A stretch of 40,531 bases of DNA from Planctomycetes bacterium GWC2_45_44 (GCA_001824555.1 MHXU01000095.1:1-40531); one strand, 5' to 3'; positions 2,821-23,546 are shown, counted from the first letter of the stretch. Notes: generated from the letters alone by a model not told the origin. Numbers and translations are program-made.

Positions 2821-2835
2821 AGCTTTTCCCTTCGT

Positions 2836-2879
2836 AACCGTTCACGGGTATTTTGACGGTTTTGGGCAACACACCCAAT
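2836..2879 (-). repeat. Intergenic stem-loop element, copy 1
   Basis: aaccgttcacgggtattttgacggttttgggcaacacacccaat; inverted repeat TTGGG-7-CCCAA; shares flank and hairpin with copies at 10263, 10513, 23293. Confidence 0.6.
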
Positions 2880-2934
2880 ATCACAAACCAAATAACTGGT
2901 TTTTTTCAAGCGGATTCTCGCATTCGTATGATAA

Positions 2935-4071
2935 TCAATACTGGCCATATCGCCGCAAAATGTTCAAGGCATTCAAGTAGTTTTCTGTTTTAGCGCCAAA
3001 TTGTACACTATTGGTTGAACCAAAAATAAAACCTCCGCCAAGCATGCAGATTCTCAACGATTCCCTAACTTCTTCTTCTACCTGTTGCAATGTTCCCTGA
3101 ATAAGTGTTTCGCACTGAATTCCAGCCCAAATTGTTAATTTCTCACCATATTGTTTTTTAACTGTCGTAAGATCCATACCTGCACTTACTTGTACTGACT
3201 GATATCCTTTTAAGCCTGCATCAATCCAGTCACCAAGGATGTCCCATATTTTACCACAGCAATGAAATAATATCGTAATACCGAGATTTTCGGCTGCTTC
3301 AACAATTTTCTTGTTAACCGGCATGAATAGCTCCCTAATCGTTTTAGGAGAAAGAATACAACCTGTTGTAGAACCATAATCGTGCCCCATCATAACTATC
3401 TTGACACCTTTTCCTGCACAATACTCCAATAATCGACGATTATATTCTATCGTAACATCATACAGCTTCCTTATTTCTTCTGGAGCAATAATTGTCATCA
3501 TGAGTTGGTGAGCCTCATCTCCGCCAAATGGAGCTATAAGTGGGCCATAAGTATCGAGGTCGCGAAAAACAACTGCTCGCTTTTCTGCAAAACGATCAAC
3601 AATGTGGTCAAGTAATTCAAACTGGGAGTAATCTATATTTAACAGTCGCTCGCTGTATGCATCTATCTCACTCAATGTCAGAGCTTCCTTTGCAGGTGAG
3701 GGTGTCATGCATACAATGGAATCGTTGGAAGCACAATATTTGTACACAAACCCAACAGAGTCTCGCCAGATGTCATCTTCAATTTTCCGAGGCGGATCTG
3801 GCGTAATTGTTTTCTCCGGCACTAATCCCACAGTAACTACATCGTAATCCAATGTCTCAATAAGCTCTGAATAATCCCGCTTCATACTCTCAACAGCTTC
3901 ATCTCTTCGCCCCTGCCATACGGCAAGTGTTGTGTCTTTTCGGTTTCGATGATAGGTATGTCGTCCGAGAATATTGCTAATGTGATCATGGTCAATCCCC
4001 CATTCCCCAACAGGGACACGATCCGGCTCTTCATGTGCAATAGTTTTAAAAACACGCTCTATGCTATTCAT
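2935..4071 (-). CDS. Uroporphyrinogen decarboxylase (URO-D)/MtaA-like family protein
   Basis: MNSIERVFKTIAHEEPDRVPVGEWG N-terminus and ITILFHCCGKIWDIL motif typical of the URO-D superfamily. Confidence 0.8.
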   Translation of the reverse strand: MNSIERVFKTIAHEEPDRVPVGEWGIDHDHISNILGRHTYHRNRKDTTLAVWQGRRDEAVESMKRDYSELIETLDYDVVTVGLVPEKTITPDPPRKIEDDIWRDSVGFVYKYCASNDSIVCMTPSPAKEALTLSEIDAYSERLLNIDYSQFELLDHIVDRFAEKRAVVFRDLDTYGPLIAPFGGDEAHQLMMTIIAPEEIRKLYDVTIEYNRRLLEYCAGKGVKIVMMGHDYGSTTGCILSPKTIRELFMPVNKKIVEAAENLGITILFHCCGKIWDILGDWIDAGLKGYQSVQVSAGMDLTTVKKQYGEKLTIWAGIQCETLIQGTLQQVEEEVRESLRICMLGGGFIFGSTNSVQFGAKTENYLNALNILRRYGQY

Positions 4072-4098
4072 TTTCAGCCTTAATGTATATCGAACAGA

Positions 4099-4401
4099 TT
4101 ATGAGCCATTTATTCTTTCCAGTTTGAAAATAACAGGTCTGTAACCATCTGTACAACAAGTGATAAATAATCCAGGTTTTGTTCCTCTAAAATTTCCTCC
4201 ACGAGCCAGTGTCATGACGTATTTTTGTATGTCAGTCCACGCCCAACTGCAAAATCCGTCCGGCATATTGACATTTTCGGAAATAAATTCCTGGTTTTCA
4301 CTTAGTCTTTCACATGGCGGCCAAACAGACTCGGCAAATTTTTCAAGAAACTCTTTATGCACCAGTCGTTTCAGTACCGTTATTTTTACTTTCGCATTCA
4401 T
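4099..4401 (-). CDS. TIGR04076 family protein
   Basis: KVKITVLKR...C...EFISENVNMPDGFCSWAWTDI...CCTDGYRPVIFKLERI matches the small Cys-rich TIGR04076 pattern. Confidence 0.75.
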   Translation of the reverse strand: MNAKVKITVLKRLVHKEFLEKFAESVWPPCERLSENQEFISENVNMPDGFCSWAWTDIQKYVMTLARGGNFRGTKPGLFITCCTDGYRPVIFKLERINGS

Positions 4402-4461
4402 CGCGGATACTTTCCTTATTAAAAATCTGATTAGTTATTTGGATAAATTAAATCAGGGTAA

Positions 4462-5322
4462 TTAGCTTTTAGCCATTTCATAATTTTTACCAATCTGAAA
4501 ATGAAAAATTTTCATAGCATTATCACTGAGTATTTGCTTCTTGGCTTTATAACTAAGATGAGCATTATCAATTCGTGCCCGCTGCATTGGGGCAAAATAG
4601 AACGGCGTATCTGTGCCATACAACAATCGCTCAGAACCTATTTCCTTAACTGCCCATTCAATTAGTCCGGGAAAAATGTTTTTTGCACTTGATGTATCAA
4701 CATAAACATTACCATATTTCGACTTTTGTATAGCACATACCTGATGGCTGGGCTCACCATCCCATCCACAACCAAGATGGGCGAGAATGAGTACTGCCTC
4801 CGAAAATTTATTGGCAAATGCGACTAAATCAGCAGGCATGCTGTTTTTCTCGCCGCTGTGACTCAAAACAATTGCGTGATGCTTTGCCGCAAATTCAAAT
4901 ATCTCTCTGCCCCACTTTTTAATTGAGTAACCATGTTCTTCGGGATGGATTTTAATTCCTGCACATTTTGGTGATTTTAACATTTCTCTGGCTTGTTCAT
5001 ACGTTTGTGGTTTGCGGGGATCAATAATTACCCACTGAAGCAGCCTTTCAGCTTTCTTAGTAACACGAGCCGAATCATCATTCCCTGCAACAGGATCATT
5101 GTTCAATCTTGGCAAAAGTCCCAGTAACGGAGAAACAATGGTCAAACGAGTATTGGATAATCGAGCTCGCTCAACTACGATTTTTTCATCACCTGTCATA
5201 AATTCATTAAGCAGCTTTGATTTGTCGCCATGATAAATACCATAGTGGCCATGAACATCTATGGCCTGTACTTCCCGGATATCCTGTTTTATTCTCGTGC
5301 CCATTTTATATATTCCTGCCAA
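4462..5322 (-). CDS. Amidohydrolase family (PF04909-like) TIM-barrel protein
   Basis: IDVHGHYG, GIKIHPEEHGY, ILAHLGCGW, LLYGTDTPF motifs. Confidence 0.8.
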   Translation of the reverse strand: MAGIYKMGTRIKQDIREVQAIDVHGHYGIYHGDKSKLLNEFMTGDEKIVVERARLSNTRLTIVSPLLGLLPRLNNDPVAGNDDSARVTKKAERLLQWVIIDPRKPQTYEQAREMLKSPKCAGIKIHPEEHGYSIKKWGREIFEFAAKHHAIVLSHSGEKNSMPADLVAFANKFSEAVLILAHLGCGWDGEPSHQVCAIQKSKYGNVYVDTSSAKNIFPGLIEWAVKEIGSERLLYGTDTPFYFAPMQRARIDNAHLSYKAKKQILSDNAMKIFHFQIGKNYEMAKS

Positions 5323-6178
5323 TGTTCTTTTTCACATTTGCAGGAAGTTCCCAACCTGCGATTTCAAGGTATTGCAACCCATTATCATATTCCTTCTCTA
5401 TTGCATTAAATGTCATATCACGGTATTCAAGTTCAACCGTGACATCACCCTTGTAGCCAACCTTATCTAAAGCTTGTGCAAACTTCTTAAAATCTACTTT
5501 TCCGGTTCCAGGGGTGAGTTCCAAATCCTGCTTACCATCAGCGGTGTCAGGACCGGCTGAATCACGCAAATGAATATGCCAAAGCCTGTCTCCGAGCGCT
5601 GAAAAAAATGAATCAGGGTCGTATCCAATTATACCCCAATGACTTGAATCAACCAGAGCTCCAATGTTAGGGCTTTCAAGACGGTCAAATACCCACAAAA
5701 CCTGTTCTGTTCGTGGCATTAGACCGTATAAATGGGGCACCTCTAACAGCATCCGCACCCCATACTTAGAAGCAATCCTGCCTACTCTATTATACGCCTT
5801 AATGGCATTTGACAGTTGATATTCCTGGTCATGACGACTATTTCGTACACCGAATCCCATAGTCATCATCGGTATCCCAACCTCGCCAAGTTGCACAATT
5901 TTCTTTTCCCATTCATGGACAAATTCATCTATCTCCTGCGGTATCCAGGCATTATGAAAATCAGTAAAATAATTTAAACCAATCGGCTGTAAACCGAAGC
6001 CATCCAGCATTTTCTTAAGCTCGGAAGGTATTGGATTTCCGAAGTTAAAATGAAAACAGTAAGTGCCAAAGCTGGCAAATTCCACCCGTTTAAATCCACG
6101 TGCCGCAATTTTTGGTAACGCTTCATAAAGAGTATAATGCGCCCAGCCTAAAGATGAAATTGCAGTTATTTTTGCCAT
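5306..6178 (-). CDS. Sugar phosphate isomerase/epimerase (xylose isomerase-like TIM barrel)
   Basis: RGFKRVEF, MLLEVPHL, GALVDSSHWG, LWHIHLRDSAG, VTVELEYRD motifs; overlaps the next gene by 17 nt. Confidence 0.8.
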   Translation of the reverse strand: MAKITAISSLGWAHYTLYEALPKIAARGFKRVEFASFGTYCFHFNFGNPIPSELKKMLDGFGLQPIGLNYFTDFHNAWIPQEIDEFVHEWEKKIVQLGEVGIPMMTMGFGVRNSRHDQEYQLSNAIKAYNRVGRIASKYGVRMLLEVPHLYGLMPRTEQVLWVFDRLESPNIGALVDSSHWGIIGYDPDSFFSALGDRLWHIHLRDSAGPDTADGKQDLELTPGTGKVDFKKFAQALDKVGYKGDVTVELEYRDMTFNAIEKEYDNGLQYLEIAGWELPANVKKNIGRNI

Positions 6179-6503
6179 ACTAACTTTCCTTTTATTATTT
6201 GTCTTAAATTTTCTTATTAGTATTTATAGTTATACGCCACCGCTATCATTCTTACTGACATATCCACATGATCCGATGCACCGGATGATTATCCAATTCT
6301 ACCGTTTGTTGAGTTGCAGAACTATTGCACTAAACTATAATGTCCTAAGATATTTGAGCAACCCCTTGGATAGCTCACCACTAACCAATGGAAAGTCTGG
6401 CTTTCATCTGTCAACTTTCGCTGGCATCCCTGTACATTTGCACTATACTTTAGAGGATTTTCATCTCCAAGCAGATGTGCCATGTTAGACACACCTATCT
6501 ATA

Positions 6504-6530
6504 GGCATAGCGGCCATAAGCCGCTATGCC
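6504..6530 (-). terminator. Stem-loop, putative terminator of the 1218-aa gene
   Basis: GGCATAGCGG ccataag CCGCTATGCC, 10-bp perfect stem 46 nt downstream of the minus-strand stop; no obvious U tract. Confidence 0.55.
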
Positions 6531-6575
6531 CAAATTAAACATCTTCCATAAAACTAATTAACTAATTTTCACCTA

Positions 6576-9500
6576 TTAAGGTTTAATCGCGATGCTCATC
6601 ATACCTTTGTACGCTGCATTCACAAGTGTAACAGCAGTGTTGCCGTAAGCCCCGGTTGCCGCCCTAATGCCTGTGGCTACACCGAGGCCGCCGCCGTTGC
6701 CAGCGGTTACGGAATTGTCGGTACGCTCGGTAACACTTGTCAGGTTGGCGTTTGTCCATGCCGAGAACTTTGCCGTGCTGCTCGCATCAGGGAGACTGGT
6801 GGCAATAGCCGTTACGACAAGAGTATTAGCAACCGTTGTAGTCGCTCCCGGAATGGAGCCGCTGGTGTCTGATACAGCCTCAACACCGCCCGCTGTAACA
6901 TCCCAGGGGTTGCCAGTGCTAATTGCACCACGAATAGCTATCATCCTGCCAAGCTGATGGTCACCTGAATCAGATGTGGTTGGAGCGCCCTGTGTCCCGT
7001 TATACCTCGACCAGAATACCGTAAGTCTGGCACCGGTAGTGCCGGCGGCTGTTCCGCAGTACTGCGGCGAGTTGGTAACCTGTGTCCACGTCCCGCCGTT
7101 TTGATTAGAAATCGAGATGGCCTGATTGGATGTCTCAAGAAACAGCAGCAAAATATCGTTTATGGCGATGCCTGCTGGAAGCGCTGGCGTTATCGTTCCT
7201 GTGCCAGATGTGACTGCTCCGGCTGCGACGAATGTTGGCATAAGGGTGGTAAAGCTCCAAACCGTACCTGTTGTAGTACCACCGGGACCAACCTCATCAA
7301 TACGCCAATAATATGTTGTAAGACTACTCAGCGTGCCGGGGGCATAAGTTGTGCCAGCCTGGTTGCCAATATATTCGGTTTCATCCGGCGTGGAATCAGT
7401 GCCGAAATAGACGTTATGTGAGGACGCACCGTTACCAGCCGTCCAGCTCAGAGTTGGGGTAAGACTGACACCTGTTGCGCCGTTGGCAGGACTTGGACTG
7501 CTTGCCGCCAAAGGAACAGCTGGTCCAGCTCCCATATAGCTGCCATCACAGGCACCTTGCCTGATAGCAGTGGGACAGGTTGTTGACAAATACATATAAT
7601 ATGGACTGTTAATATCCGTTGACACAAAAATCGGATTAACAGCCGTTAAGCAACCTGTGCCTCTGGTAATATTGTAACTTATCCCTTGGATGTTACCGTA
7701 AAAAGCGGTATATGTAACCGTCGTCAGGCTTCCAGTTGCCAACTGATACATCCCATATCCATAATTATTGACAATCAGATTGTCCTTAATTATCCAATTA
7801 GGGAGGTAATGACTCGTAAAGATTCCATACCCATCATATGTCGCGCCATTGCTAATAATCGTACAGTTCTCTATGGTGCCGCTGGTTTCTGTGGAGGGAT
7901 TAGTCAACATCTGTAGAGGTAACGCAATGCCATGATCAACATTACTCTCAAAAATGCTGTAGCGCACGGTACAATTGACAATCTTGTCAGTGTCACCGTT
8001 TGGCTCAAAATCGAGGCCGCACATGGGAGCAAGACCCGAGGTCGTCCGCAAAATACAGTTTTCTATAAGCAGCTTTATAACACTGACAACACTGATGCCA
8101 TTTCGAGCATTATCTTCACAGACAACATCTTTGATTGTAATATTCTGACAAGGTGAAGGGTTTTGGCCTATGTAGACACCATCACCACCGGTATTTTCAA
8201 TCCGCATTCCACGGATGTTCACGTTGCTACAAGTACGGAGCCAGACACCCATTCGCCACTCACCAGATAGCCCCACATAGTCTTCTTTCCGCATTCGGAA
8301 TCTTGCCCCATATCCTGTGAGCGTGATATTAGTCTTTCCCTCGGCCTTAAACAGACAATCTGTTTCGCCAGTGAAGAACCCCTTCTTGGCTTGAACAAGA
8401 ACACCATCCTCAAAAATGATCTCCTGGTTCGAGACCAGGAATATCGGGGTGACATTCCAAGGGATTCCCATATTGGGGACATACACTGTGCGGGCTCCAC
8501 TATTTATCGCTGCCTGCAGTGCGGTGGTTGCGTCAACCTCATCATACCCGAATGTTGAAGCATCTACCGTGTTGGGCACTGTCAAGATGATCGCTGAGGG
8601 AACATATGCAAGCGAAAGAAAAGGTGATGTCCCTGCCGAGCGAGTTACCTGTGAAGCTGCTTCTGCCGCATACACAACATCGCAGGGTGAACTTTGTATA
8701 TCATATGTTCCGGATCCCGCGTAAGACCCCGGTAGATTAATGGTGTCAATATATGCCCCAGTCGTCATGTTATAACGCTGGATATCATTATTGGCCATGT
8801 TGCTGACATACAGATATTCTCTAAACATTATAGCAGCAGCCTGTTGACCAAGTGAACCGGCTGGAACAAAATCATCAATATACGCACCCGTTGTTCCATC
8901 ATAACGCTTGACACAATAATTTGACATGGCTGCTACATAAATATTTCCGTCTGGACCAAACTTAATATCACGAGGGTTAGCAAGCCCGCCGCTACCAGCT
9001 GTCACAAAATCACCAATATATGCCCCTGTCGAACCATTATATTTCTTCACGGAGGAATTAGTAAAATCGGCAATGTATAGGTTGTTATCTGGACCGAAAG
9101 TCATGCCAACAATATTTGCCAATCCACCACTACCAGTAGTGACGAAGTTGCTATCGTATGCACCTGTCGAACCGTTATATTTTTTTACATTTCCATAATA
9201 ACTGGCGACATAAACATAGTTCGCATCTGGTCCATAGCATATGTCTTCAGGCATACTCAACCCACCGCTTCCGGCAGCAATAAATGCTCCTAAAGCTGCT
9301 CCAGTTATCCCGTCATAACGCAGAACACTGTTTCCACTCTCGTTGGCCACTAAAAGGTCTGGCACGGCTGTTGCGGGCATCATCCACGTAATCGCCGAGG
9401 GAATATATGCAAGCGAAAGAAAAGGTGATGCCCCCGTTGAGCGAGTTACCCGCGCAGCTGCTTCTGCCGCATACAGAACACCGTCAGATGAACTTCGGAG

Positions 9501-10232
9501 ATCATATGTCCCGGCTCCCGCATAAGACCCCGGCAATGTAAATGTGTCAACATATGCCCCAGTCGTCGAGTTATAACGCCGGATATTATTATCAGCCATA
9601 TTACTGACATACAAATATTGTTCATCAAACATTATAGCAGCCGGCTGTTGACCAAATGAGGGTACAAAATCACCCATATATGCACCGGTAGTGCCATTAT
9701 AGCGTTTGACCGTGTAATTTGACATGGCTGCTACATAAATATTTCCGTCTGGACCAAACTTAATGTCGCGAGGGTTAGCGAGACCTCCACTGCCAGCCGC
9801 CACAAAGTCGCCTATGTATGCACCAGTAGAACCATTATATTTCTTCACAGAAGAATTGCCAAAATCCGCAACATAGAGATTCTTGTCAGGACCAAAAGTC
9901 ATGCCCACGACATTTGCCAACCCGCCACTGCCAGCCGCCACAAAGTCGCCTATGTACGCACCTGTTTTACAACTGTACTTTTTTACACTGCCATAATAGC
10001 CGGCGACATAAACATAGCTTGCATCCGGTCCATAGCATATGTCTTCAGGTGAACTCAACCCACCGCTTCCGGCAGTAATAAATGCACCCAAATCTGCCCC
10101 GGTTACCCCGTCATAACGCTCAACAAGGTTTCCAGCCTCGTTGGCCACTAAAAGGTCTTGTACAGCTGCATTCGCCTGACTCGCTAACAAAACCAAAACT
10201 ATTACAATTGATACAATTTTTAATTTGCACAT
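6576..10232 (-). CDS. Secreted multidomain protein: signal peptide, two NHL-type propellers, right-handed beta-helix, Fn3-like domain, uncharacterised C-terminal domain
   Basis: 1218 aa; hydrophobic N-terminus; repeated (F)GPDxNxYVAxxxNxxVKKYNGxTGAYxGDFV units; beta-helix DATTALQAAINSGARTVYVPN...; SPSPANGATGVSLTPTLSWTAG...YYWRIDEV Fn3-like. Confidence 0.85.
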   Translation of the reverse strand: MCKLKIVSIVIVLVLLASQANAAVQDLLVANEAGNLVERYDGVTGADLGAFITAGSGGLSSPEDICYGPDASYVYVAGYYGSVKKYSCKTGAYIGDFVAAGSGGLANVVGMTFGPDKNLYVADFGNSSVKKYNGSTGAYIGDFVAAGSGGLANPRDIKFGPDGNIYVAAMSNYTVKRYNGTTGAYMGDFVPSFGQQPAAIMFDEQYLYVSNMADNNIRRYNSTTGAYVDTFTLPGSYAGAGTYDLRSSSDGVLYAAEAAARVTRSTGASPFLSLAYIPSAITWMMPATAVPDLLVANESGNSVLRYDGITGAALGAFIAAGSGGLSMPEDICYGPDANYVYVASYYGNVKKYNGSTGAYDSNFVTTGSGGLANIVGMTFGPDNNLYIADFTNSSVKKYNGSTGAYIGDFVTAGSGGLANPRDIKFGPDGNIYVAAMSNYCVKRYDGTTGAYIDDFVPAGSLGQQAAAIMFREYLYVSNMANNDIQRYNMTTGAYIDTINLPGSYAGSGTYDIQSSPCDVVYAAEAASQVTRSAGTSPFLSLAYVPSAIILTVPNTVDASTFGYDEVDATTALQAAINSGARTVYVPNMGIPWNVTPIFLVSNQEIIFEDGVLVQAKKGFFTGETDCLFKAEGKTNITLTGYGARFRMRKEDYVGLSGEWRMGVWLRTCSNVNIRGMRIENTGGDGVYIGQNPSPCQNITIKDVVCEDNARNGISVVSVIKLLIENCILRTTSGLAPMCGLDFEPNGDTDKIVNCTVRYSIFESNVDHGIALPLQMLTNPSTETSGTIENCTIISNGATYDGYGIFTSHYLPNWIIKDNLIVNNYGYGMYQLATGSLTTVTYTAFYGNIQGISYNITRGTGCLTAVNPIFVSTDINSPYYMYLSTTCPTAIRQGACDGSYMGAGPAVPLAASSPSPANGATGVSLTPTLSWTAGNGASSHNVYFGTDSTPDETEYIGNQAGTTYAPGTLSSLTTYYWRIDEVGPGGTTTGTVWSFTTLMPTFVAAGAVTSGTGTITPALPAGIAINDILLLFLETSNQAISISNQNGGTWTQVTNSPQYCGTAAGTTGARLTVFWSRYNGTQGAPTTSDSGDHQLGRMIAIRGAISTGNPWDVTAGGVEAVSDTSGSIPGATTTVANTLVVTAIATSLPDASSTAKFSAWTNANLTSVTERTDNSVTAGNGGGLGVATGIRAATGAYGNTAVTLVNAAYKGMMSIAIKP

Positions 10233-10262
10233 TGTCTTAGCTCCTTAAAACTTGAATAATTT

Positions 10263-10305
10263 GCCGTTCACAGATATTTTGACTACATTGGGCTACGCAC
10301 CCAAT
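10263..10305 (-). repeat. Intergenic stem-loop element, copy 2
   Basis: gccgttcacagatattttgactacattgggctacgcacccaat; ATTGGG-7-CCCAAT, upstream of the 1218-aa gene. Confidence 0.65.
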
Positions 10306-10334
10306 TCCAAAATACATAATTTAATTAGTTACAA

Positions 10335-10379
10335 AAAAGTACTTGCTTAATACTGAACATCAAAGGCTTCAGTACTTTT
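10335..10379 (-). promoter_or_regulatory. Candidate leader with mutually exclusive hairpins
   Basis: AAAAGTACT(10335-10343)/AGTACTTTT(10371-10379) 9-bp inverted repeat, and overlapping TACTGAA(10351-10357)/TTCAGTA(10368-10374); on the minus strand the outer hairpin runs into a T-run. Confidence 0.3.
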
Positions 10380-10512
10380 AAACGAGGTTGCTTAAGTAAT
10401 ATAAAAAAGATAACTCTATGGTAAACTAAGAATTAGTCGAGGCAGCGTCAACAAAGATGTACCCAATTATATTCTTATTAAAAATCTATTCCATAAGCAC
10501 CTCACTCAGTTA

Positions 10513-10546
10513 ATTATAGTTTGATATATTGGGCAACGCACCCAAT
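10513..10546 (-). repeat. Intergenic stem-loop element, copy 3
   Basis: attatagtttgatatattgggcaacgcacccaat; ATTGGG-7-CCCAAT, just downstream of the MFS gene stop. Confidence 0.6.
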
Positions 10547-10578
10547 CTTAAAATGCCCAGTTATTCAATTATTAACTT

Positions 10579-11946
10579 TTATATATGGGGTGGAACATAT
10601 CCCTTTATTCCTCCGCGACGCGACCACTCCCGATATACAAAAAACATCGGAATAAGGGATAGAAATCCGAAGAAGGCGACCCAAATGTATAAATAACGAT
10701 AGTTACCAATTATGTCAAAAAACTTACCTGCAAGGAAACTGCCCAAAATAATGCCCAAAGAATTGACAATTGCGTTTGCAGAACTAAATTGGCCATATTT
10801 TTCTCTTGGTACCAATGCAATAAACATAGGAACATTACTGACCGCAAAAAACAGATACAAAGCTGTCGTGATTAAGGAATACACAAAATAGGTAGATTTG
10901 TCATGAATGGCAAAAAAGGAAACGGTCATCCCAACAACAAAAATAGCAACGCCTATAATGTATATTCGCAAAGGATGTAATTTGTCAGAAAGATAACCCA
11001 TCGGTATCATTAAGCAAAATGATAAAAGCATACACCAACTTTGAATTTTTCCGATTTCGTCCAAGCTCAATCCAAGAGTATCGCGTGCGAAAAGTAAGCC
11101 GAAGGCACTGGTTGAGACGACAGCAACCATGAAAGTGGCTGTACCCAAGAAAATCCAGATGTATAGAGAATGACCAAAACATTCATGTAAGTAAACTTTA
11201 ACTGATCCTATGATGCTTTTACCATGAGCGTGTTCCGGAGGCGGAGGATATTCCCCTTCCTTGACCCGCCAGCACATAAATAGGAAAGAAATCAAATATA
11301 CTAAACCGATAACAAAATAGATTTCTCTCATGTGAGTTTTTGAAAAACCAAGAATATATCGATAAAACAGAAATCCAGAAGCCGTACCCACAACCTGGAA
11401 CCAAGCCATAAACCGCCCCATAAACTGTTCAGGAACAACATCGGCAAATAAATAATAGTAAATAGAAGATATAAACATATTAAAAAATTGGAAGCAAACT
11501 GAAAAAATACAAATAAGTGCAATCATTAGGCTGATGCTAGAAATATTGCAGGAATACAAAATGTGTGAGTGCAGCCATATACCAATGGCATCACTGTAGC
11601 CAATCAGAATTAAAAATAAGGCAACAAAAGGGGTCGCTATGAAAAGAAAGGGAATACGACGTCCAAAACGACTTCGATATCGATCACTTCTTACACTGAT
11701 AATTGGATTTACTATCATATTCATTAAGCTTGGAATACTCCCGATAACAACACCCATCAAAAGGTTCGATGCTCCCAAATCTTTTAGTGCAAGGGGCAAT
11801 AAATTGGGTATAACTGCTCTCATAAGCGTAAAGCAGAAATCGCCCCACAACAGCCATAGGAAAAGAGTAATCAAGCCTAATCGAGTATACGTCAACGTCC
11901 CTGCCCGATATGGTTTTATAGCTTTTAAATCCACCGCATTATTCAT
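10579..11946 (-). CDS. MFS transporter (putative sugar/glycoside)
   Basis: 455 aa, many hydrophobic helices; SDRYRSRFGRRIPFLF and GYLSDKLHPLR loop motifs typical of MFS. Confidence 0.85.
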   Translation of the reverse strand: MNNAVDLKAIKPYRAGTLTYTRLGLITLFLWLLWGDFCFTLMRAVIPNLLPLALKDLGASNLLMGVVIGSIPSLMNMIVNPIISVRSDRYRSRFGRRIPFLFIATPFVALFLILIGYSDAIGIWLHSHILYSCNISSISLMIALICIFSVCFQFFNMFISSIYYYLFADVVPEQFMGRFMAWFQVVGTASGFLFYRYILGFSKTHMREIYFVIGLVYLISFLFMCWRVKEGEYPPPPEHAHGKSIIGSVKVYLHECFGHSLYIWIFLGTATFMVAVVSTSAFGLLFARDTLGLSLDEIGKIQSWCMLLSFCLMIPMGYLSDKLHPLRIYIIGVAIFVVGMTVSFFAIHDKSTYFVYSLITTALYLFFAVSNVPMFIALVPREKYGQFSSANAIVNSLGIILGSFLAGKFFDIIGNYRYLYIWVAFFGFLSLIPMFFVYREWSRRGGIKGYVPPHI

Positions 11947-11982
11947 AAATACTCACAATATATCAAAATTTCTCTCATGTAC

Positions 11983-13278: not shown

Positions 13279-13295
13279 AATTTTAGATTCTCCGT

Positions 13296-14627: not shown

Positions 14628-14669
14628 TTAGTAGCTCCTGTTGAAATCTCTTATATTAAGTTTTTACAA

Positions 14670-15650
14670 TTATTCCGCGGCTTTTTGACTATACTCTTTC
14701 AATAATGAAACATAGCACTGATAATTGTGGAGAGATACATCTGGCGGAGTCTGGTGATCAACAGATGGTATAAAACCACCCTGTCTCATAATTGGCAACA
14801 GACGGTCAAATTCAGTACGCATCGCAGTTTCACCATTTTTCATTACCATTTTGTCAAAAGCGCCAATCATTCTAAATCGAGGGTGTTTTGAACGAATTTC
14901 CTGAATGTCAATTCCCGAAGCACGTTCCAACGGAAGTATGCCCTGAATTCCAACTTTCTCAAGCCAGGGGATTAACTCGCTGACATTGCCATCAGAATCA
15001 ACAAAAGGAATAATACCCAATTGCTTTAAAATCGGGACAATGCGTCGATAATATGGTGCAATAAACTCCTCAAAACATGTCTCGGAGAGCATCGGGCCAT
15101 GGTTGTAAGACATATCTTCTGCAAACGTCATAAAATCGGGTATGCAATAATGACTAATTTGTTCTAATAGATATACATAATAATCTGCTAAGTCATTATT
15201 GATTTCATGCATAAGCTCAGGCTCATCATAGAAAGAATATAGATGACGCTCAATTCCAAACAGTGTACGAGGAAACCAGAAAAATCCCTCCAACGTAATC
15301 CAGAAAACGCTTTGGCCGCACTGATGCCTATGTGCAATTTTTCTCAGTTCGTCGTCATGACCATAATCAGAATACAAAAACGGTTTAATGCTATGATAAT
15401 CGTTTTTATTTTTGATAAAAACATTATCGGGTAGAGGGTATTGCGTATGTCGCGGCGATGTCCAGAGATGATCGTATGCATCAAGACCAAAATAACTACG
15501 CAGGTTGGAGGCGCCAACCAGATCAGTGGGAAGCCCTTCCCCATGCCAACGCGCAACTGTCTTATCCCAATACTCAGCCCATTCTATGCATGGAACTCGG
15601 TCAACAGGTCGAAAGGACATCACTGCTTTGAAACGTTCTACATTATTCAT
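14670..15650 (-). CDS. URO-D family protein, metal-ligand-divergent
   Basis: MNNVERFKAVMSFRPVDRVPCIEWAEYWDKT N-terminus; IPFVDSDGNVSELIPWLEKVGI in place of the usual HxCG motif. Confidence 0.75.
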   Translation of the reverse strand: MNNVERFKAVMSFRPVDRVPCIEWAEYWDKTVARWHGEGLPTDLVGASNLRSYFGLDAYDHLWTSPRHTQYPLPDNVFIKNKNDYHSIKPFLYSDYGHDDELRKIAHRHQCGQSVFWITLEGFFWFPRTLFGIERHLYSFYDEPELMHEINNDLADYYVYLLEQISHYCIPDFMTFAEDMSYNHGPMLSETCFEEFIAPYYRRIVPILKQLGIIPFVDSDGNVSELIPWLEKVGIQGILPLERASGIDIQEIRSKHPRFRMIGAFDKMVMKNGETAMRTEFDRLLPIMRQGGFIPSVDHQTPPDVSLHNYQCYVSLLKEYSQKAAE

Positions 15651-15716
15651 ATTTAACAGATATCAAGCCAACTGTTTTGAAAAAGTGACATATGATTCAA
15701 AAAAATTTTTGAGCAT

Positions 15717-17756
15717 CTATTTTGCTTTTGAATCAGAATTCAAAAGCTTACGATCCCATCGTGAATCTTCCAGCCATGCGAGAAATCCCATATTGGCAAC
15801 ATTTTCATTTTCTATACTATTGCGATAGTCATGCAACTTCTGAAATGCAGCAATAAATTCCTGAGGATTCTTTGTCTTCAGCTGCGTATCATAAGCGTTT
15901 TGGGTGGTAAGAATGAGATTGGCGTGTTGCAATCCTTTTTTAAGGAAATCAACTCGCTGTTGTGATACGACATTTTTGCCGGCGGCAAGGTAAGCCTTTT
16001 TCAGCAACATTTCCCCCTCTGCTATGACTTCCGGTGCAAATAATGGTACGCTTTCCGAGTCATCTATCCTCGCTGACTTGGAGGCATTTTCCCAGAATAG
16101 GAAGTATGTCTTCACCTCCGATTTCGCCGGTCCGAATCCGGCATAATATTCATCAAGAATCTTCTCCACTGGCCAATCGGGGTGGATATTCATACGCCCC
16201 ATAACATAGAGGTCGGCCCCCTGAGTAGCCCATTGGCCAAAGATACTGTCAAAGTCTGTGGCAATCATTCCCCGCTTGGCCGCAAACGCAAAGCTCTCTC
16301 CAAGCTTCCGGGCATAGTTAAGAGGCATGCCGTGTCCATATATCGTATAATTAGGCCGCAGGAAGAGCCGGGCTCCCGTAGCCGCCCAACCATCCCACTG
16401 ATCTCTAAAGTTCTTCAATTGCTTGTCCGGCCACGGGGGTTGTATATCCGGGACAATCCCGATATAAACCCTGTCATTCAGTTTGGTGTGGATGGGGGCA
16501 CGGGAGTAATTTGCGTAGGCGTAGGCACAAACAACAACATTCGGATCTATTTTTGATGCTTCATTTTGAACAGCCAAATAGAACTTGGCATACCGATCAG
16601 AAAGCGACCCCAACCAAAGCGCAGCAGCACGACGATCGTATATTGTTTTTCCTTTCTCCCAGGCTTCTTTCATTTTTGCTACCCTGTTCGGAAAATCCAG
16701 CGAATTTGTTTCGGCCGGCAGATCACTGTTCTGATCCAATGCATCCCAGGACAGACATTTTTCACATACACATTTACCCATCGTGTCATTTTCACAAACA
16801 TTAACCTGTGGACGGGTGGATGTGCGGGTCTCCTGCCAGTCTTTAACGATTTGTTTCCAAAGCTCTGGCTGCGAAACGCACATCGCGACTAAATCAGCTC
16901 GGTTGTTCAACGTAGGATCAGGCCGACGAGTTCCGTCAGGTAGAAGACTGAAAAAATCACCATGGGTGCCGGAGAAACGGTCCCAGTAGTTTGAGAAAGC
17001 ATGGCCGATATTGATATCTACAGACATCGCAAATCGATGCCTCCGTAACCACACGGACTGATTATTCAGGAATTCAGTCCGATGCTCCGCCGCTGCCCAG
17101 GCATCCTGTTTTTCGTAGTCGTTTTCTGCATCGCGGAAACGGGAGCGAATAAATTTGGGTGCCCACGATCGGCTTTCTGTTTTGACCTTCAGAATCGAAA
17201 TTTTCGGGATCACCTCGCCCAACTTACCCGGCCAAAGCCAGTGAATATCCATTTCGTTTTCAAGAAACTCATAGACAGCAAAAAGGGTACCCACCCGGGT
17301 ATAGTTATTAATCAATATTCCCAATACCGGCCCATCGGTGTCGTTACCGACCAGATAAAGATTGTTATTGACTAATTTTATTACACATCCATTTGGCGGG
17401 AATTTCTGCGTTTCTATACCGGCTTCGAATGTTTTTTTACATAATCCCAGGTAAATTAACCCTGCCTCAACAGGCTTTTGGCTCTCTTTTACAACCGGCA
17501 CGCAGGCTCCTGTGGATTCCTTAATGTGATACTGCAATTCCTGGGCGGCATATGAGACCACAGCCAGTTCCTGGTCTGGTATGACAATACTGGTAGCAGG
17601 CTTCCCATCGAGAACGATATCAAAAGCCTTTGCACTTTGCCATGACAAGATTAAATTTGTAAAGATAAAAAAATAAAAAATAGAACATTTACAAAAATTG
17701 TTAACAAGACTCATCTCACAATCCTTTCTTTGGGGGGTTAAACATTTCTTCTGCAA
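15717..17756 (-). CDS. DUF4838 / alpha-glucuronidase-like secreted protein
   Basis: AAQELQYHIKESTGACVPVV...GTLFAVYEFLENEMDIHWLWPGKLGEVIPK and NVCENDTMGKCVCEKCLSWD are typical of DUF4838 proteins. Confidence 0.75.
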   Translation of the reverse strand: MQKKCLTPQRKDCEMSLVNNFCKCSIFYFFIFTNLILSWQSAKAFDIVLDGKPATSIVIPDQELAVVSYAAQELQYHIKESTGACVPVVKESQKPVEAGLIYLGLCKKTFEAGIETQKFPPNGCVIKLVNNNLYLVGNDTDGPVLGILINNYTRVGTLFAVYEFLENEMDIHWLWPGKLGEVIPKISILKVKTESRSWAPKFIRSRFRDAENDYEKQDAWAAAEHRTEFLNNQSVWLRRHRFAMSVDINIGHAFSNYWDRFSGTHGDFFSLLPDGTRRPDPTLNNRADLVAMCVSQPELWKQIVKDWQETRTSTRPQVNVCENDTMGKCVCEKCLSWDALDQNSDLPAETNSLDFPNRVAKMKEAWEKGKTIYDRRAAALWLGSLSDRYAKFYLAVQNEASKIDPNVVVCAYAYANYSRAPIHTKLNDRVYIGIVPDIQPPWPDKQLKNFRDQWDGWAATGARLFLRPNYTIYGHGMPLNYARKLGESFAFAAKRGMIATDFDSIFGQWATQGADLYVMGRMNIHPDWPVEKILDEYYAGFGPAKSEVKTYFLFWENASKSARIDDSESVPLFAPEVIAEGEMLLKKAYLAAGKNVVSQQRVDFLKKGLQHANLILTTQNAYDTQLKTKNPQEFIAAFQKLHDYRNSIENENVANMGFLAWLEDSRWDRKLLNSDSKAK

Positions 17757-17889
17757 AATAGCCCGTTTGCTGAATATTCCTATCTTACAACAATATTGTT
17801 CTTGTGCTTTTCTCCTGCATACCGCGCTGTCCTAATATGTTTTACTTGCAGCGTCAAAAATCCGATGTAAAACTATCAAGGAACAAGTG

Positions 17890-19242
17890 CTAAGGCGTTG
17901 GATTATTGGAAACAAGCCAGTCATTGGCTATCATGACAACGTCAAGGAAATTTACAACGCAATCGTGATTAAAATCGGCAGGCATACCCTTGCCAAATTG
18001 CCATATATTCGCACACGCCTGAGCATCAGATGCCATCGGTCGAGCTCCCAAATAGCCGCCATTGGAGGCACCGCTTAGTAGTATAGCGGGAACATTCACC
18101 TTCGCCAAATACATATAATCGGAACTGCTAATGTCTGCCGAGGCAAATAACGGAGCGACAGTCGTTAGGCAACCCGTGCCTCTGGTAACATGGTAAGTTA
18201 TCCCACCGATGTTTCCATAGAAAGCGGTATACGTAACCGTTGTTTGCAATCCAGCCATGTTCTGATACATCCCATAGCCATAATTATTGACAATCAGATT
18301 GTCCCTAATTGTCCAATTGGGCAGGTAATGACTTAGGTAGATTCCATATGCGTTATATAGCGAGCCATTACTAATAATCGTACAATTCGTTATACTGCCG
18401 CTAGTTTGCCCAGAGGGGTCGGTCAACTGCTGTAGAGGTAACGCAATGCCGTGATCAACATTGCCCTCAATAATGCTGTAGCGTACGATACAATTGACTA
18501 TCTTGTCTGTGTTATAGTTCGGCTCGAAATCTATGCCGCACATGGGGGCAAGACCCGAGGTAGTTCGTAAAATACAATTATCAATAAGTAAATTTACAAC
18601 ACTTACAACACTGATAGCATTACGAGCACAGTCTTCACAGGTAACGTCTTTGATTGTGATGTTCTGGCATGGAGTTGAAGATTCAGGAATTTCACCGATG
18701 TAGACACCATCACCGCCAGTGTTTTCAATCCGCATTCCACGGATATTCACATTGGTGCAACTACGGAGCCAAATACCCATTCGCCACTCACCCGGCAAAG
18801 ACAGGTAATCTTCCTTCCGCATTCGGAACCTTGCTCCATACCCAGTGAGTGTGATATTGGACTTTCCCTCGGCCTTAAACAGACAATCCTGTTGGCCTAT
18901 GAAAGAACCAGCCTTGGCCTGAATAAGAACACCACTCTCAAAAATTATCTCCTGGTTCGAGGCTAGGAAAATAGGAGTCACAATCCACGGAGTTCCCATA
19001 TTTGGCACGTACACTGTGCGGGCTCCGCTGTTGATCGCTGCTTGCAGTGCAGTAGTTGCGTCAACTGCATTATATCCGAATGCCGAAGCATCAACCCATG
19101 GTTGCCACACCGGCACTTCCGCTACTGAAGGACTACACGGCAGCACCACACACAGCAGTACAAAAGCAATTGAGTGTATTTTTGCCAAAATTGTCATATT
19201 TATTTTCATCATTCTACTTTCATTCAATTGGAAACAAGCCAA
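17890..19242 (-). CDS. Secreted right-handed parallel beta-helix protein with C-terminal dockerin-like motif
   Basis: Paralogous to the beta-helix part of the 6576..10232 protein; C-terminus ADFNHDCVVNFLDVVMIANDWL; start is probably internal (MMKINMTILAK, about 19212). Confidence 0.8.
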   Translation of the reverse strand: MACFQLNESRMMKINMTILAKIHSIAFVLLCVVLPCSPSVAEVPVWQPWVDASAFGYNAVDATTALQAAINSGARTVYVPNMGTPWIVTPIFLASNQEIIFESGVLIQAKAGSFIGQQDCLFKAEGKSNITLTGYGARFRMRKEDYLSLPGEWRMGIWLRSCTNVNIRGMRIENTGGDGVYIGEIPESSTPCQNITIKDVTCEDCARNAISVVSVVNLLIDNCILRTTSGLAPMCGIDFEPNYNTDKIVNCIVRYSIIEGNVDHGIALPLQQLTDPSGQTSGSITNCTIISNGSLYNAYGIYLSHYLPNWTIRDNLIVNNYGYGMYQNMAGLQTTVTYTAFYGNIGGITYHVTRGTGCLTTVAPLFASADISSSDYMYLAKVNVPAILLSGASNGGYLGARPMASDAQACANIWQFGKGMPADFNHDCVVNFLDVVMIANDWLVSNNPTP

Positions 19243-20213
19243 TTCTGTGCCATAACGGCAAAGTCAAGGAAATCAACAACGCAATCTTCATTCAGGTCGG
19301 TCGCCATTCCCATGTTCAGCAGCCATATATCCTCACAAGTCTGGGGGACGAACGGTGTCCAGACAATCGCTGAGGGGACGAACGAGAGAGAAAGAAAAGG
19401 TGATGTCCCTGCAGATCGAGTTACTCTGGCAGCAGCTTCCACTGCATACAGCAAGCCATCCGGACCATTACCAAGATCGTATGTTCCGGCTCCTGCGTAA
19501 GACCCCGGTAGAGTAAAGGTGTCAATATATGTACCATCGAAGCCATAACGCTTGATCTGATTATTGGCCATGTTACTGACATACAGAGCTTCTCTAAACA
19601 TTATGGCAGATGCCTGTTGACCGAGTGAAGTGATGGGGACAAAATCATCAATATAAGCACCGGTTGTCCCATTATAGCGTTTGACCGAATATGTTGACAT
19701 GGAAGCAATATAAAGATTCCCGTCCGGACCAAACTTAATGTCGCGAGGATTAGTAAGTCCGCCGCTGCCGGTAGCCACAAAATCACCCATGTATGCTCCC
19801 GTCGAACCGTTATATTTTTTGACAGAGGAACCAATAAAATCGGCGACATATAAATTATTGTCTGGACCGAAAGCCATGCCAATAATATTCGCCAATCCAC
19901 CACTGCCGGCAGTAACAAAGTTGCCAATGTATGCGCCTGTCGTGCCATTATATTTTTTTATAGTTCCAGAGTAGCAGGCTACATATAGATTACCGTCCGA
20001 ACCAAATTTAATGTCTTCAGGCGAAGTAAGCCCGCCGCTTCCGGCAGCAACAAATGCTCCTAAAGCTGCTCCGGTTATCCCGTCATAACGCAGAACACTG
20101 TTTCCGGCCTCATTGGCCACCAATAGGTCTTGTACTGCCGCATTTGATTGACTTGTTAAGCCTATCAACAAAACTAAAACTATTGCGACTGACACAACTT
20201 TTAATTTTAACAT
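19224..20213 (-). CDS. Secreted NHL-type propeller protein with dockerin-like C-terminus
   Basis: Signal peptide, repeated GPDNNLYVADF..SSVKKYNGSTGAYMGDFV units, C-terminus TDLNEDCVVDFLDFAVMAQNWL. Confidence 0.85.
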   Translation of the reverse strand: MLKLKVVSVAIVLVLLIGLTSQSNAAVQDLLVANEAGNSVLRYDGITGAALGAFVAAGSGGLTSPEDIKFGSDGNLYVACYSGTIKKYNGTTGAYIGNFVTAGSGGLANIIGMAFGPDNNLYVADFIGSSVKKYNGSTGAYMGDFVATGSGGLTNPRDIKFGPDGNLYIASMSTYSVKRYNGTTGAYIDDFVPITSLGQQASAIMFREALYVSNMANNQIKRYGFDGTYIDTFTLPGSYAGAGTYDLGNGPDGLLYAVEAAARVTRSAGTSPFLSLSFVPSAIVWTPFVPQTCEDIWLLNMGMATDLNEDCVVDFLDFAVMAQNWLVSN

Positions 20214-20264
20214 TGTCTCTCTATTTCTTAAAAACTGAAGAACCGCTTCGAAACAAGCCTAATA

Positions 20265-20292
20265 CGGTGGCTCACTATTGAGCGAGCCACCG
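20265..20292 (-). terminator. Stem-loop, putative terminator
   Basis: CGGTGGCTC actattgagc GAGCCACCG downstream of the 20339..21370 stop. Confidence 0.6.
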
Positions 20293-20338
20293 CGATAAAG
20301 AAAGGCAAATCTATTTTTGACAGCCCTGTAAACAATCT

Positions 20339-21370
20339 CTATTTAGTGGAAACAAGCCAGTTTTGCGCTATGATGGCAATATCAAGGAAATTTACGACGC
20401 AATCCTGATTCAGGTCGCCTTGCGAAAGTGGCAACGGCGAACAAGCCGGGACATAAGGCGGTAGTGGCGGTAACCAGGCAATCGCTGAGGGAGAAAAACC
20501 GAGTGAAACAAAAGGCGATGGCGTTATCGAACGAGTTATCCGCGCAGCTGCTTCTGCGGCATACAGTCTATTATCCGGACCATTACCAAGATCGTATGTT
20601 CCGGCTCCTGCGTAAGACCCCGGTAGAGTAAAGGTGTCAATATATGTACCATCGAAGCCATAACGCTTGATCTGATTATTGGCCATGTTACTGACATACA
20701 GAGCTTCTCTAAACATTATGGCAGATGCCTGTTGACCAAGCGAAGAGGCGGGAACAAAGTCATCAATATATTCCCCCGTAGTCCCATTATAGCGTTTGAC
20801 TGCATAATTCGACAGACCAGCTACATAAACATTACCGTCGTAGCCAAATTTAATGTCGCGAGGATTAGCAAGCCCGCCGCTTCCAGCCGTCACAAAGTCG
20901 CCCATGTACGCCCCTGTCAAACCATTGTATTTTTTTACAGAAGAATTAATAAAATCGGCTACATAGAGATTCTTGTCAGGACCAAAGGTCATGCCGATAA
21001 TATTGGATACTCCACCACTGCCCTCAGCGACGAAGTCACCAATATACGCACCCGTCGTGCCGTTATATTTTTTTACACTGCCATAATAGCTGGCAACATA
21101 AAGGTAGTTCGGGTCCGGCCCAAAACATATATCTTCAGGTGAAGTCAGCCCGCCTGATCCAGCAGTAATAAATGCACCCAAATCTGCTCCGGTGTCCCCG
21201 TCATAACGCATAACAAGGTTTCCGCCCTCGTTGACCACCAACAGGTCGTGCGCAGCCGCATTTAATTTACCGGCCACACCCATCAATAAAACTAAAACTA
21301 ATAGAATTAAAGTTCTCTTTTTCATGTGTTTCGCTCCAAAATAAATTACTTGTTTCTGCAAATTACACAA
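20339..21370 (-). CDS. Secreted NHL-type propeller protein with dockerin-like C-terminus
   Basis: Propeller repeats; C-terminus GDLNQDCVVNFLDIAIIAQNWLVSTK; likely true start MKKRTLILLVLVLLMG at about 21325. Confidence 0.85.
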   Translation of the reverse strand: MCNLQKQVIYFGAKHMKKRTLILLVLVLLMGVAGKLNAAAHDLLVVNEGGNLVMRYDGDTGADLGAFITAGSGGLTSPEDICFGPDPNYLYVASYYGSVKKYNGTTGAYIGDFVAEGSGGVSNIIGMTFGPDKNLYVADFINSSVKKYNGLTGAYMGDFVTAGSGGLANPRDIKFGYDGNVYVAGLSNYAVKRYNGTTGEYIDDFVPASSLGQQASAIMFREALYVSNMANNQIKRYGFDGTYIDTFTLPGSYAGAGTYDLGNGPDNRLYAAEAAARITRSITPSPFVSLGFSPSAIAWLPPLPPYVPACSPLPLSQGDLNQDCVVNFLDIAIIAQNWLVSTK

Positions 21371-21417
21371 ACATACTTAATAATTGCTTTCATATTGATT
21401 TTTTGCTTCGTTCCGCA

Positions 21418-21437
21418 TTGTCCCAACTTTGGGACAA
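21418..21437 (-). terminator. Stem-loop, putative terminator of the pseudopilin gene
   Basis: TTGTCCCA actt TGGGACAA, 8-bp perfect stem, 4-nt loop. Confidence 0.5.
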
Positions 21438-21453
21438 CTCACACCGGGCATCG

Positions 21454-22302
21454 TTACCACAAACTTCGCGGCAGCATCGTGTATTTATCGAAAAAGGAAT
21501 TTCGATTCGACTCAACATGGCCATCCCATGCAAGAACATTTACACCTGTATTACTGTTATGATAATAGTCGATAATCCAAAAAGCAGGATATGTTTTGGC
21601 GTATTTCAGGTCCCAATATATCGGAGTTGTAGCCGGGGCATGAAAGTGTCGTCCCTCCGCTACATCCGGGATACTTGCCGGACTACGCATTCTACCGACA
21701 CGAATAGGAGTATTGTTAGCAGACTCGCCATACCAACCAACACTAAGAGGGTCGAAAGAGTTACGAGTGTAAGACAGTTCGGACAAATAACGTTGGGTTA
21801 AAATGCCCCCAACAACAGGCCCATCTGACCAAGTCGTTTTTTTTAAACTTATGGAAGTGGGACATCTCAGCCACGCCCCCTTGACAGGCTGTACATTGCG
21901 TAAAAGTGGATCTGCCGGAGTTGAAACAGGCACTTTCCCCATCATACTCCATAAAGATATTGCCCAAAATCTGGATGAGTTACTCTTCCCTGGCGTCTCC
22001 AAGTATGTCCAGGCCGCGACACCGTTGTTACTTTCGTGGTACATCACCTCCAACTGACCCATGGCACGCAGATTCGCTTTACAGACCACCGATCTCGCAG
22101 ATTCCCTTGCCTTTCCCAAAGCCGGCATGAGCACCGCAAGAAGTAAGGCTATAATAGAAATCACGACCAATAGTTCTACAAGTGTAAAAGCTTTTTTTGT
22201 CTTCATAAAAAATCTTTTTCTCATGTCATAACTCGTTAGCAACGAATACATCCATCGTGACAAGATGGCAGCCCGCAATTGAGCAGGCTGCCACAGGTTC
22301 AC
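21454..22302 (-). CDS. Type II secretion/pseudopilin-like protein with prepilin N-terminal cleavage/methylation motif
   Basis: MKTKKAFTLVELLVVISIIALLLAVLMPALGKARESARSVVCKANLRAMGQ; likely true start near 22206. Confidence 0.85.
   Translation of the reverse strand: MNLWQPAQLRAAILSRWMYSLLTSYDMRKRFFMKTKKAFTLVELLVVISIIALLLAVLMPALGKARESARSVVCKANLRAMGQLEVMYHESNNGVAAWTYLETPGKSNSSRFWAISLWSMMGKVPVSTPADPLLRNVQPVKGAWLRCPTSISLKKTTWSDGPVVGGILTQRYLSELSYTRNSFDPLSVGWYGESANNTPIRVGRMRSPASIPDVAEGRHFHAPATTPIYWDLKYAKTYPAFWIIDYYHNSNTGVNVLAWDGHVESNRNSFFDKYTMLPRSLW
22266..22293 (-). terminator. Stem-loop, putative terminator of the PEP-CTERM gene
   Basis: TGGCAGCC cgcaattgagca GGCTGCCA just downstream of the 22310 stop. 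Confidence 0.55.
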
Positions 22303-22309
22303 TATATTT

Positions 22310-23257
22310 TTATTTTCTGCGTCGAAGCAACATCATCACGGCACCGGAGACCAGTAAACTCATAGTCATCGGCTCTGGCACAGGTGTCCAGGCAATTGCT
22401 GATGGTACGTATCCGAGCGAAAGAAAAGGTGATGGCAATATTGAGCGAGTTACCCGCGCAGCTGCTTCTGCTGCATACAGCCTGCCGTCAGGTGATTCGA
22501 TCATGTCATATGTTCCGGCTCCAGCGTAAGATCCAGGCAGAGTAAAAGTGTCAACATAACCCGTAGTTACGTCATAACGCTGGATGTCATTATTGGCCAT
22601 ATTACTTACATAGAGAACATTTCCTCTAAACAATACAGCAGCAGCCTGTTGACCAAGATAAGATGCTGGAACAAAATCATCAATATAAGCTCCTGTTGTC
22701 CCATCATAGCGTTTGACTGCATAATTCGACAGACCGGCTACATAAAGCTTCCCATCCGGACCAAACTTAAGATCACGCGGATTAGCAAGACCGCCGCTGC
22801 CGTTCGTCACCAAGTCGCCCATGTAAGCTCCTGTCGAACCATTATATTTTTTGACAGAAGAACCACCGGTTCCGGCAAAATTGGCAATATACAGATTGTT
22901 ATCGGGGCCAAAGGTCATGCCGATAATATTTGATACCCCGCCGCTGCCGGAAGTAACGAAGTCGCCAATATATGCGCCCGTCGAACCGTTATATTTTTTT
23001 ACAGTTCCAAAATAGCCAGCGACATATAAACTCCCATCCGGACCAAACTTAATGTCTTCAGGCGAACTAAGCCCGCCGCTCCCGGCGGCGACAAACGCAC
23101 CCAACGATGCCCCGGTTACTCCGTCATAACGCATAACAGCGTTTCCGGCCTCGTTAGCCACCAACAGATCTTGCGCAGCCGCATTTGCCAGACTCGCCAA
23201 GCCCGCTAACACAAGAACCATTACAACAACACTCAACACAATTCTAAACTTCGACAT
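22310..23257 (-). CDS. Secreted NHL-type propeller protein with PEP-CTERM sorting signal
   Basis: Propeller repeats; C-terminus VPEPMTMSLLVSGAVMMLLRRRK (PEP, hydrophobic helix, basic tail). Confidence 0.87.
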   Translation of the reverse strand: MSKFRIVLSVVVMVLVLAGLASLANAAAQDLLVANEAGNAVMRYDGVTGASLGAFVAAGSGGLSSPEDIKFGPDGSLYVAGYFGTVKKYNGSTGAYIGDFVTSGSGGVSNIIGMTFGPDNNLYIANFAGTGGSSVKKYNGSTGAYMGDLVTNGSGGLANPRDLKFGPDGKLYVAGLSNYAVKRYDGTTGAYIDDFVPASYLGQQAAAVLFRGNVLYVSNMANNDIQRYDVTTGYVDTFTLPGSYAGAGTYDMIESPDGRLYAAEAAARVTRSILPSPFLSLGYVPSAIAWTPVPEPMTMSLLVSGAVMMLLRRRK

Positions 23258-23292
23258 TTTTCTACCTCCCTAAAAAATACGACTATTCTGGA

Positions 23293-23325
23293 GTGTTTTG
23301 ATTACATTTGGGCAACACACCCAAT
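23293..23325 (-). repeat. Intergenic stem-loop element, copy 4
   Basis: agtgttttgattacatttgggcaacacacccaat, upstream of the PEP-CTERM gene. Confidence 0.6.
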
Positions 23326-23546
23326 TTCAAAAACACCCCTTGCTCAATTACATTCTTTCTTCCATATTACTTTCTCATCTCACTATGAAACATTAACAAA
23401 AGCATTTTCATTATGCCGTGATTGTAACTGAACCAATTTAATCTGTCAATATATTTTTTTTAAAAAATTTATTTTTTTAAAAGTAATTTTCAAAATTTCA
23501 AATTAAAGCGTAGTCTTGTCCTGTTTTGACCAAAAACTACCTTTGA

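Follow-up and report, generated by a model that had tools for sequence, protein, structure and literature searches.

The 40,531-nt stretch of DNA analysed here (the window) carries four copies of a hairpin that also forms the transposase-5′-side end of IS66-family insertion sequences (ISs), where it is accompanied by the terminal repeat GTAACCGTTCAC, an 8-bp target duplication, and an outward promoter. Judged from sequence comparisons, this IS end was probably exapted as a structured 5′ leader of mRNAs for exported and PEP-CTERM proteins, with a putative regulatory output. The element would be an RNA hairpin in mRNA 5′ leaders, just upstream of the ribosome-binding region, derived from that end of an IS66-family element which bears the hairpin and reads outward; copies beside genes would have lost the IS terminal repeat while the hairpin and its set spacing from the start codon were kept. 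We infer the direction from IS to leader, selection for a function in the mRNA, and a post-transcriptional action.

Copies in the window, the home genome, and relatives

All four copies were present where the preliminary description had placed them, in the orientation it reported, but the relevant strand is the minus strand, opposite to the one on which they had been written (Table 1). Three of them were said to lie upstream of minus-strand genes, and copies 1, 2, and 4 indeed end 28, 40, and 35 nt before minus-strand start codons, with propeller genes following copies 2 and 4.

Table 1 Features of the window (positions within the 40,531 nt)
Feature	Position	Strand	Evidence
Copy 1, hairpin with partly decayed outer stem	2846..2890	-	R2 49.7 bits; R1 34.8 bits
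GTGAACGGTTAC, intact terminal inverted repeat of IS66 type, immediately following copy 1	2834..2845	-	exact match
743-aa ORF downstream of copy 1	589-2820	-	hairpin 28 nt before its ATG
Copy 2, intact two-helix hairpin	10273..10316	-	R2 45.5 bits; fold z = -3.0
GTGAACGG, terminal-repeat remnant after copy 2	10264..10271	-	read in sequence; tail score 9/12
Copy 3, tandem upstream copy, inner hairpin kept, outer stem broken	10518..10557	-	R2 45.9 bits; fold without outer stem
Gene following copies 2 and 3; product exported, with two propellers and a beta-helix	6576..10232	-	Pfam NHL and Beta_helix
Copy 4, intact two-helix hairpin	23293..23336	-	R1 49.4 bits, E 4e-7; fold
Sigma70-like promoter TTGACA-17-TACAAT upstream of copy 4	23421..23449	-	11/12 consensus; consensus match only
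Shine-Dalgarno AGGGAGGT of propeller gene 22310-23257, outside the hairpin	23264..23271	-	read in sequence; unpaired with hairpin in fold
Gene following copy 4; product an exported NHL-propeller protein with a PEP-CTERM tail	22310..23257	-	Pfam NHL; TIGR02595 21.8 bits vs cut-off 16

Copies 2 and 4 precede paralogous propeller genes (protein identity 74–75%) and their leaders can be aligned along their whole length, so the two represent one inherited leader and not two insertions. They differ by one compensated A-T to G-C change in the outer stem, and the part of the IS repeat retained by copy 2 was lost from copy 4. From the predicted promoter, a leader of ~160 nt containing copy 4 would be transcribed; this leader stands at the head of a minus-strand gene run that includes a pseudopilin-type ORF. 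The NHL propeller family itself (window positions 17890-23257 and 6576-10232, five units with 74–76% identity) shows a recent expansion and is missing from most relatives. Copy 1, with its whole repeat kept and its outer stem damaged, looks like a less adapted IS end; its gene has no clear signal peptide, and Pfam and NCBIfam searches with the 743-aa protein gave no match. The string ‘ccgttcac’ previously noted as common to copies 1 and 2 belongs to the IS66 terminal inverted repeat, which had gone unrecognised, and GTGAACGGTTAC has two exact matches in the home genome, one of them at copy 1. For copy 3, whose outer stem is broken, decay of a tandem copy is the best reading; it is located just past the stop codon of an MFS gene (10579-11946) and lies 285 nt ahead of the propeller gene that copy 2 precedes, and this two-copy arrangement recurs on contig C172 of the home genome.

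Within the window, a 5-bp stem with an unspecified 7-nt loop was found four times against a shuffled mean of 1.4, with 4 of 100 shuffles reaching as high, which is only weakly above chance. A pattern with the fixed loop matched ten copies in the whole genome and none when reversed. R1, a covariance model derived from ten copies spaced by hand, retrieved 14 home-genome copies at E ≤ 1, and its successor rebuilt from 83 matches (R2) retrieved 16. Fourteen of these end 27–40 nt upstream of a start codon; the remaining two, copy 3 (contig C95) and its counterpart on C172, are tandem extras ~250 nt further upstream whose genes already have a proximal copy. The downstream genes mostly encode NHL propellers, PEP-CTERM proteins, and large secreted proteins, with at least 12 of the 14 products looking exported and about six carrying PEP-CTERM sorting tails. 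Roughly six of the ~30–36 PEP-CTERM genes of the home genome thus carry the element and most do not; the enrichment (~6e-9) assumes 2400 genes and refers to the ~6 PEP-CTERM genes among the 12 first counted.

Among relatives, the covariance model matched 34 of 161 genomes of the order and two further genomes of the class, the latter with one match each, while a sample of 392 genomes of the phylum, searched with strict filters, gave no match beyond the home genome. The covariance scan that the preliminary description had proposed, together with a search for compensatory changes, was thus productive in the home genome and in the order, with covariation in both stems (see below), and neither of the outcomes it had set against its own reading, a random distribution or a lack of extra copies, was observed. 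Presence is patchy: genome G012 has seven copies, and the covariance scan found none in the congener G001 (78% complete) or in most of genus g2. Leaders without the terminal-repeat tail are present in several families of the order. As for the lineage of the home genome, the one scan of named genomes yielded a single distant match, and its PEP-CTERM tails, dockerin-like repeats, and pseudopilins would fit a Phycisphaerae-like member of the Planctomycetota. Contigs of G136 (C431, C434, and C435) and contig ends of G154 and G020 break off at a uniform distance from the hairpin repeat, indicating that assemblies were broken at recent IS copies and that copy counts are lower bounds.

Structure of the hairpin and covariation of its stems

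Read on the minus strand of the window towards the genes, i.e., on the reverse of the strand described earlier, the element is a 44-nt two-helix hairpin composed of an 8-bp outer stem, an asymmetric internal loop, a 7-bp inner stem, and the loop GYGUW, with the anatomy GGGUAUUUGAU-AUUGGGUGYGUUGCCCAAU-ACUNUNAAAUACCC. The inner stem ATTGGGU/GCCCAAU has seven pairs with U.G closing the loop. The hairpin ATTGGG/CCCAAT of the preliminary description was recovered, but copies 1 and 4 begin with TTTGGG and their inner stem has 5–6 bp; the TTTTGA flank was likewise conserved as described, but the outer covarying stem, whose 3′ arm has TTTTGA as its antisense, had been missed.

Covariation was assessed on 69 distinct copies in an alignment that was fitted to the model and hence leans towards structure: 93.4% of the cells were paired compared to 82.3% in shuffles, sliding the partner by 1–3 columns reduced pairing to 50% or less, and two-sided changes occurred at 10 of 15 pairs. 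In the stand-alone copies only (n = 28; defined below), 91.8% were paired and both sides had changed at 9 of 15 pairs. With these shuffle and slide controls, covariation exceeded what column composition and relatedness account for. At one outer-stem position, UA, AU, GC, CG, and GU pairs were all found. Given the controls and this variety of pair types, the aligned sequences make the structure hard to doubt. On the gene-sense strand, G.U outnumbered A.C 82:23 overall and 53:5 in stand-alone copies (loop-closing pair left out), a bias predicted only by gene-sense RNA and therefore pointing to structure in the mRNA. By eye, loop CGUU could form a pseudoknot with tail AACG in some tailed copies; this was rejected, since several copies break it and stand-alone copies lack the tail.

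IS66 ends and stand-alone leaders

Genome G154 contained 22 matches, ~20 of them near-identical, with one sharp right boundary at GGTTAC, ending after CGTGAACGGTTAC, ragged left ends, and a perfect outward-reading TTGACA-17-TATAAT upstream. Sites with GTGAACGGTTAC numbered 62 in G154 and 22 in G020, compared to none in a reversed control, and often formed inverted pairs. The paired repeats GTAACCGTTCAC...GTGAACGGTTAC begin with GTAA, as IS66 terminal repeats do, and the sites bearing paired GTGAACGGTTAC repeats are IS66-type elements and MITEs with 8-bp target duplications; the 8-bp repeats were perfect at L147, L149, L150, and L154 and imperfect or absent at other loci. The element at locus L159 is a complete IS, with its repeats at positions 1049 and 2695, the duplication TCGTTTTC on both sides, and a transposase of 482 aa (NF033517 at 300 bits vs a cut-off of 180; PF03050, DDE_Tnp_IS66, at 143 bits); its hairpin occurs at one end only, beside the 5′ side of the transposase gene. 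Two other readings of these ends were dropped: an integron attC site, suggested by the GTTAC-like ends, which proved to be IS66 repeats, and a 5′-truncated retro-element, suggested by the ragged left ends in G154, which gave way to IS66 with internal deletions because paired repeats and 8-bp duplications were seen.

The same terminal repeat was also found on elements of other kinds. A MITE family of G154 (L147, L148, L150, L151, L153, and L154; ~200–470 bp) has no hairpin and a different interior, tcctgtaatcctgtcaaaaaa, and several members have perfect 8-bp target duplications. Elements of 49–71 bp (L152, 954-1002; L149, 906-976) consist of two terminal repeats face to face, the one at L149 with a perfect 8-bp target duplication. 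Complete IS66-type elements of ~1.47 kb at L145 (661-2143) and L146 (1230-2697) have no hairpin at either end; an IS3-like gene pair directly follows the former and a second IS66-like transposase gene adjoins the latter. Matches to GTGAACGGTTAC within conserved coding sequence at L161 and L163 (G022 and G103) are unrelated to IS ends.

In the home genome, IS66 is represented by one C-terminal fragment only, which ends in GTGAATGGTTAC. No IS66 gene or second terminal repeat was found at the window copies, which are thus at most IS66 derivatives. The suggestion that the element might be a dispersed small repeat was right; more precisely, it corresponds to the end of an IS66-family element.

Copies outside G154 were split by their match to the 12-base terminal repeat into tailed (11–12 matches, n = 31) and stand-alone (9 or fewer, n = 29). 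With start codons chosen by script (at least one poorly, at C164), 9 of 29 tailed copies lay within 21–51 nt of the next start, compared to 23 of 24 stand-alone copies, all counted upstream of the start; sense orientation and regular spacing within predicted 5′ leaders thus characterise the latter. Signal-like N termini, scored by a crude home-made rule, followed 18/29 tailed and 24/24 stand-alone copies and were found in 44/82 background genes, which were taken from the same contigs and from which the tailed group does not differ; since the leaders of copies 2 and 4 are paralogous, the counts are not fully independent. About 12 genes downstream of stand-alone copies encode PEP-CTERM proteins. 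IS66 coding remnants accompanied 11/31 tailed copies vs one stand-alone copy, and in stand-alone copies the hairpin is conserved within flanks that are near random. By these sequence features, tailed copies behave like IS ends and stand-alone copies like leaders. IS ends and copy 4 have a clear consensus sigma70 promoter; most stand-alone copies gave no clear signal, with promoter scores barely higher than those of shuffled sequence (8.1 vs 7.6), so stand-alone copies may use other promoters.

Alternative origins, possible action, and relation to known systems

That the copies are mere IS66 or MITE remnants, their hairpin serving the IS only (e.g., by controlling its transposase through an antisense or fold-back mechanism, as with RNA-OUT in IS10) and their position beside genes reflecting insertion bias, we consider unlikely. 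The hairpin does sit at an IS end with an outward promoter, copies with intact repeats show variable spacing and ordinary gene neighbours, copy 1 combines a full repeat with a gene lacking a clear signal peptide, and the IS66 remnant of the home genome ends in the same repeat. Decay should, however, erase hairpin and repeat at similar rates, whereas the copies without a repeat retain both stems with compensatory changes, a tight spacing, and exported-protein genes only, and the asymmetry of G.U over A.C is more pronounced among stand-alone copies than in the full set. The leader might instead be an ancient cis-regulatory RNA of the host, belonging to surface-protein genes, that an IS66 lineage captured and that supplies its insertions with a working outward promoter and leader; this would explain the tail-less leaders in several families of the order and a hairpin at one of the two IS ends only, as if added to a normal IS66 end. 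This origin is doubtful, as many otherwise stand-alone leaders have 8–11 of 12 tail matches, which is expected for decaying IS ends, and patchiness among close relatives suits mobile spread better.

A double-stranded DNA operator bound by a dimeric transcription factor, in favour of which are the inverted repeat at a constant distance upstream of genes and a LacI-family regulator gene nearby (23705-24745), is very improbable: G-C, U-A, A-U, C-G, and G-U are exchanged at outer-stem positions with pairing kept, which a base-reading protein would not preserve, and the G.U excess is strand-specific. The protein-binding site on DNA that the preliminary description had offered is accordingly disfavoured, stem bases changing freely while pairing is kept; its RNA regulatory element stands as a structure, on covariation and the strand-specific G.U excess, with the regulation putative. 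It had also argued against a plain terminator, and the absence of a T-run after the hairpin at any copy agrees. Although copy 3 and a copy on contig C21 lie shortly past stop codons, intrinsic termination of the upstream gene is extremely improbable, the scans listing no terminator there and the spacing being fixed to the downstream start codon rather than to the upstream stop.

If the exapted-leader reading holds, the most likely mode of action would be mRNA protection or translation control through a trans factor recognising the GYGUW loop; this is favoured because the region covered by the ribosome begins only past the hairpin and the Shine-Dalgarno sequence is left free. Action by hiding the start codon is unlikely according to the predicted folds, since the hairpin lies before the ribosome site and shows no Shine-Dalgarno pairing. 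Hairpins whose loop is conserved while the stem varies freely are typically recognised by a protein, another RNA, or a ligand, or serve as stabilising 5′ hairpins. More tentatively, and with a smaller chance of being right, the IS66 end with its promoter and hairpin may have placed dozens of unlinked genes for exported and PEP-CTERM proteins under one trans-acting signal as a transposon-dispersed RNA regulon, with the loop as the recognition site for a ligand or protein.

The IS described here shares with IS66 of the transposase-only type the GTAA-starting repeat, the 8-bp duplication, and, at L159, DDE_Tnp_IS66 and the IS66 NCBIfam equivalog; it differs in that the transposase-5′ end, and not the other, has the hairpin and an outward sigma70 promoter, and in that stand-alone hairpins are conserved without an IS. 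The papers searched for a hairpin or an outward promoter at the ends of IS66 elements yielded nothing relevant, and no such leader was found described. In IS10 (RNA-OUT) and mobile promoters, an outward promoter and a stem-loop occur at an IS end and transposition spreads promoter DNA; in contrast, the leaders here stand alone and appear to be selected without the IS. Leader RNA candidates of the kind reported by Weinberg (PMC2864571) are likewise covarying 5′ leaders with a conserved loop and functionally coherent genes, but the present element is shared with a transposon end and has no Rfam match: nothing was found at gathering thresholds on the window or at E ≤ 1 on the element in six loci, in a comparison that covers neither the ‘Rhodopirellula-1’ nor the ‘Transposase-resistance’ motif, both without an Rfam number in PMC2864571. 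In Proteobacteria, the cis-regulatory site upstream of PEP-CTERM genes is a DNA motif with a sigma54 promoter (-24 GG / -12 GC; Haft 2006, PMC1569441). Both are common elements upstream of many PEP-CTERM genes, but the one described here is a covarying RNA hairpin, and a sigma54 promoter of that type was ruled out, as TTGGGTGYGTTGCCC has GG-N7-GC instead of GG-N10-GC.

IS ends exapted as promoters are known, and so are structured leaders; what appears to be new is their combination, with a visible series that leads from IS end to leader and is linked to exported proteins. If the reading is right, many copies at different stages of decay show how an IS end becomes a structured mRNA leader, in a series running from fresh ISs with repeats and variable spacing to old copies of which the hairpin alone is left, at a constant spacing. 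A ready covariance model is at hand for a structured RNA missing from Rfam. The control of PEP-CTERM genes outside Proteobacteria was left open by Haft et al. (PMC1569441), and the element would provide a concrete handle on the control of PEP-CTERM and surface genes there.
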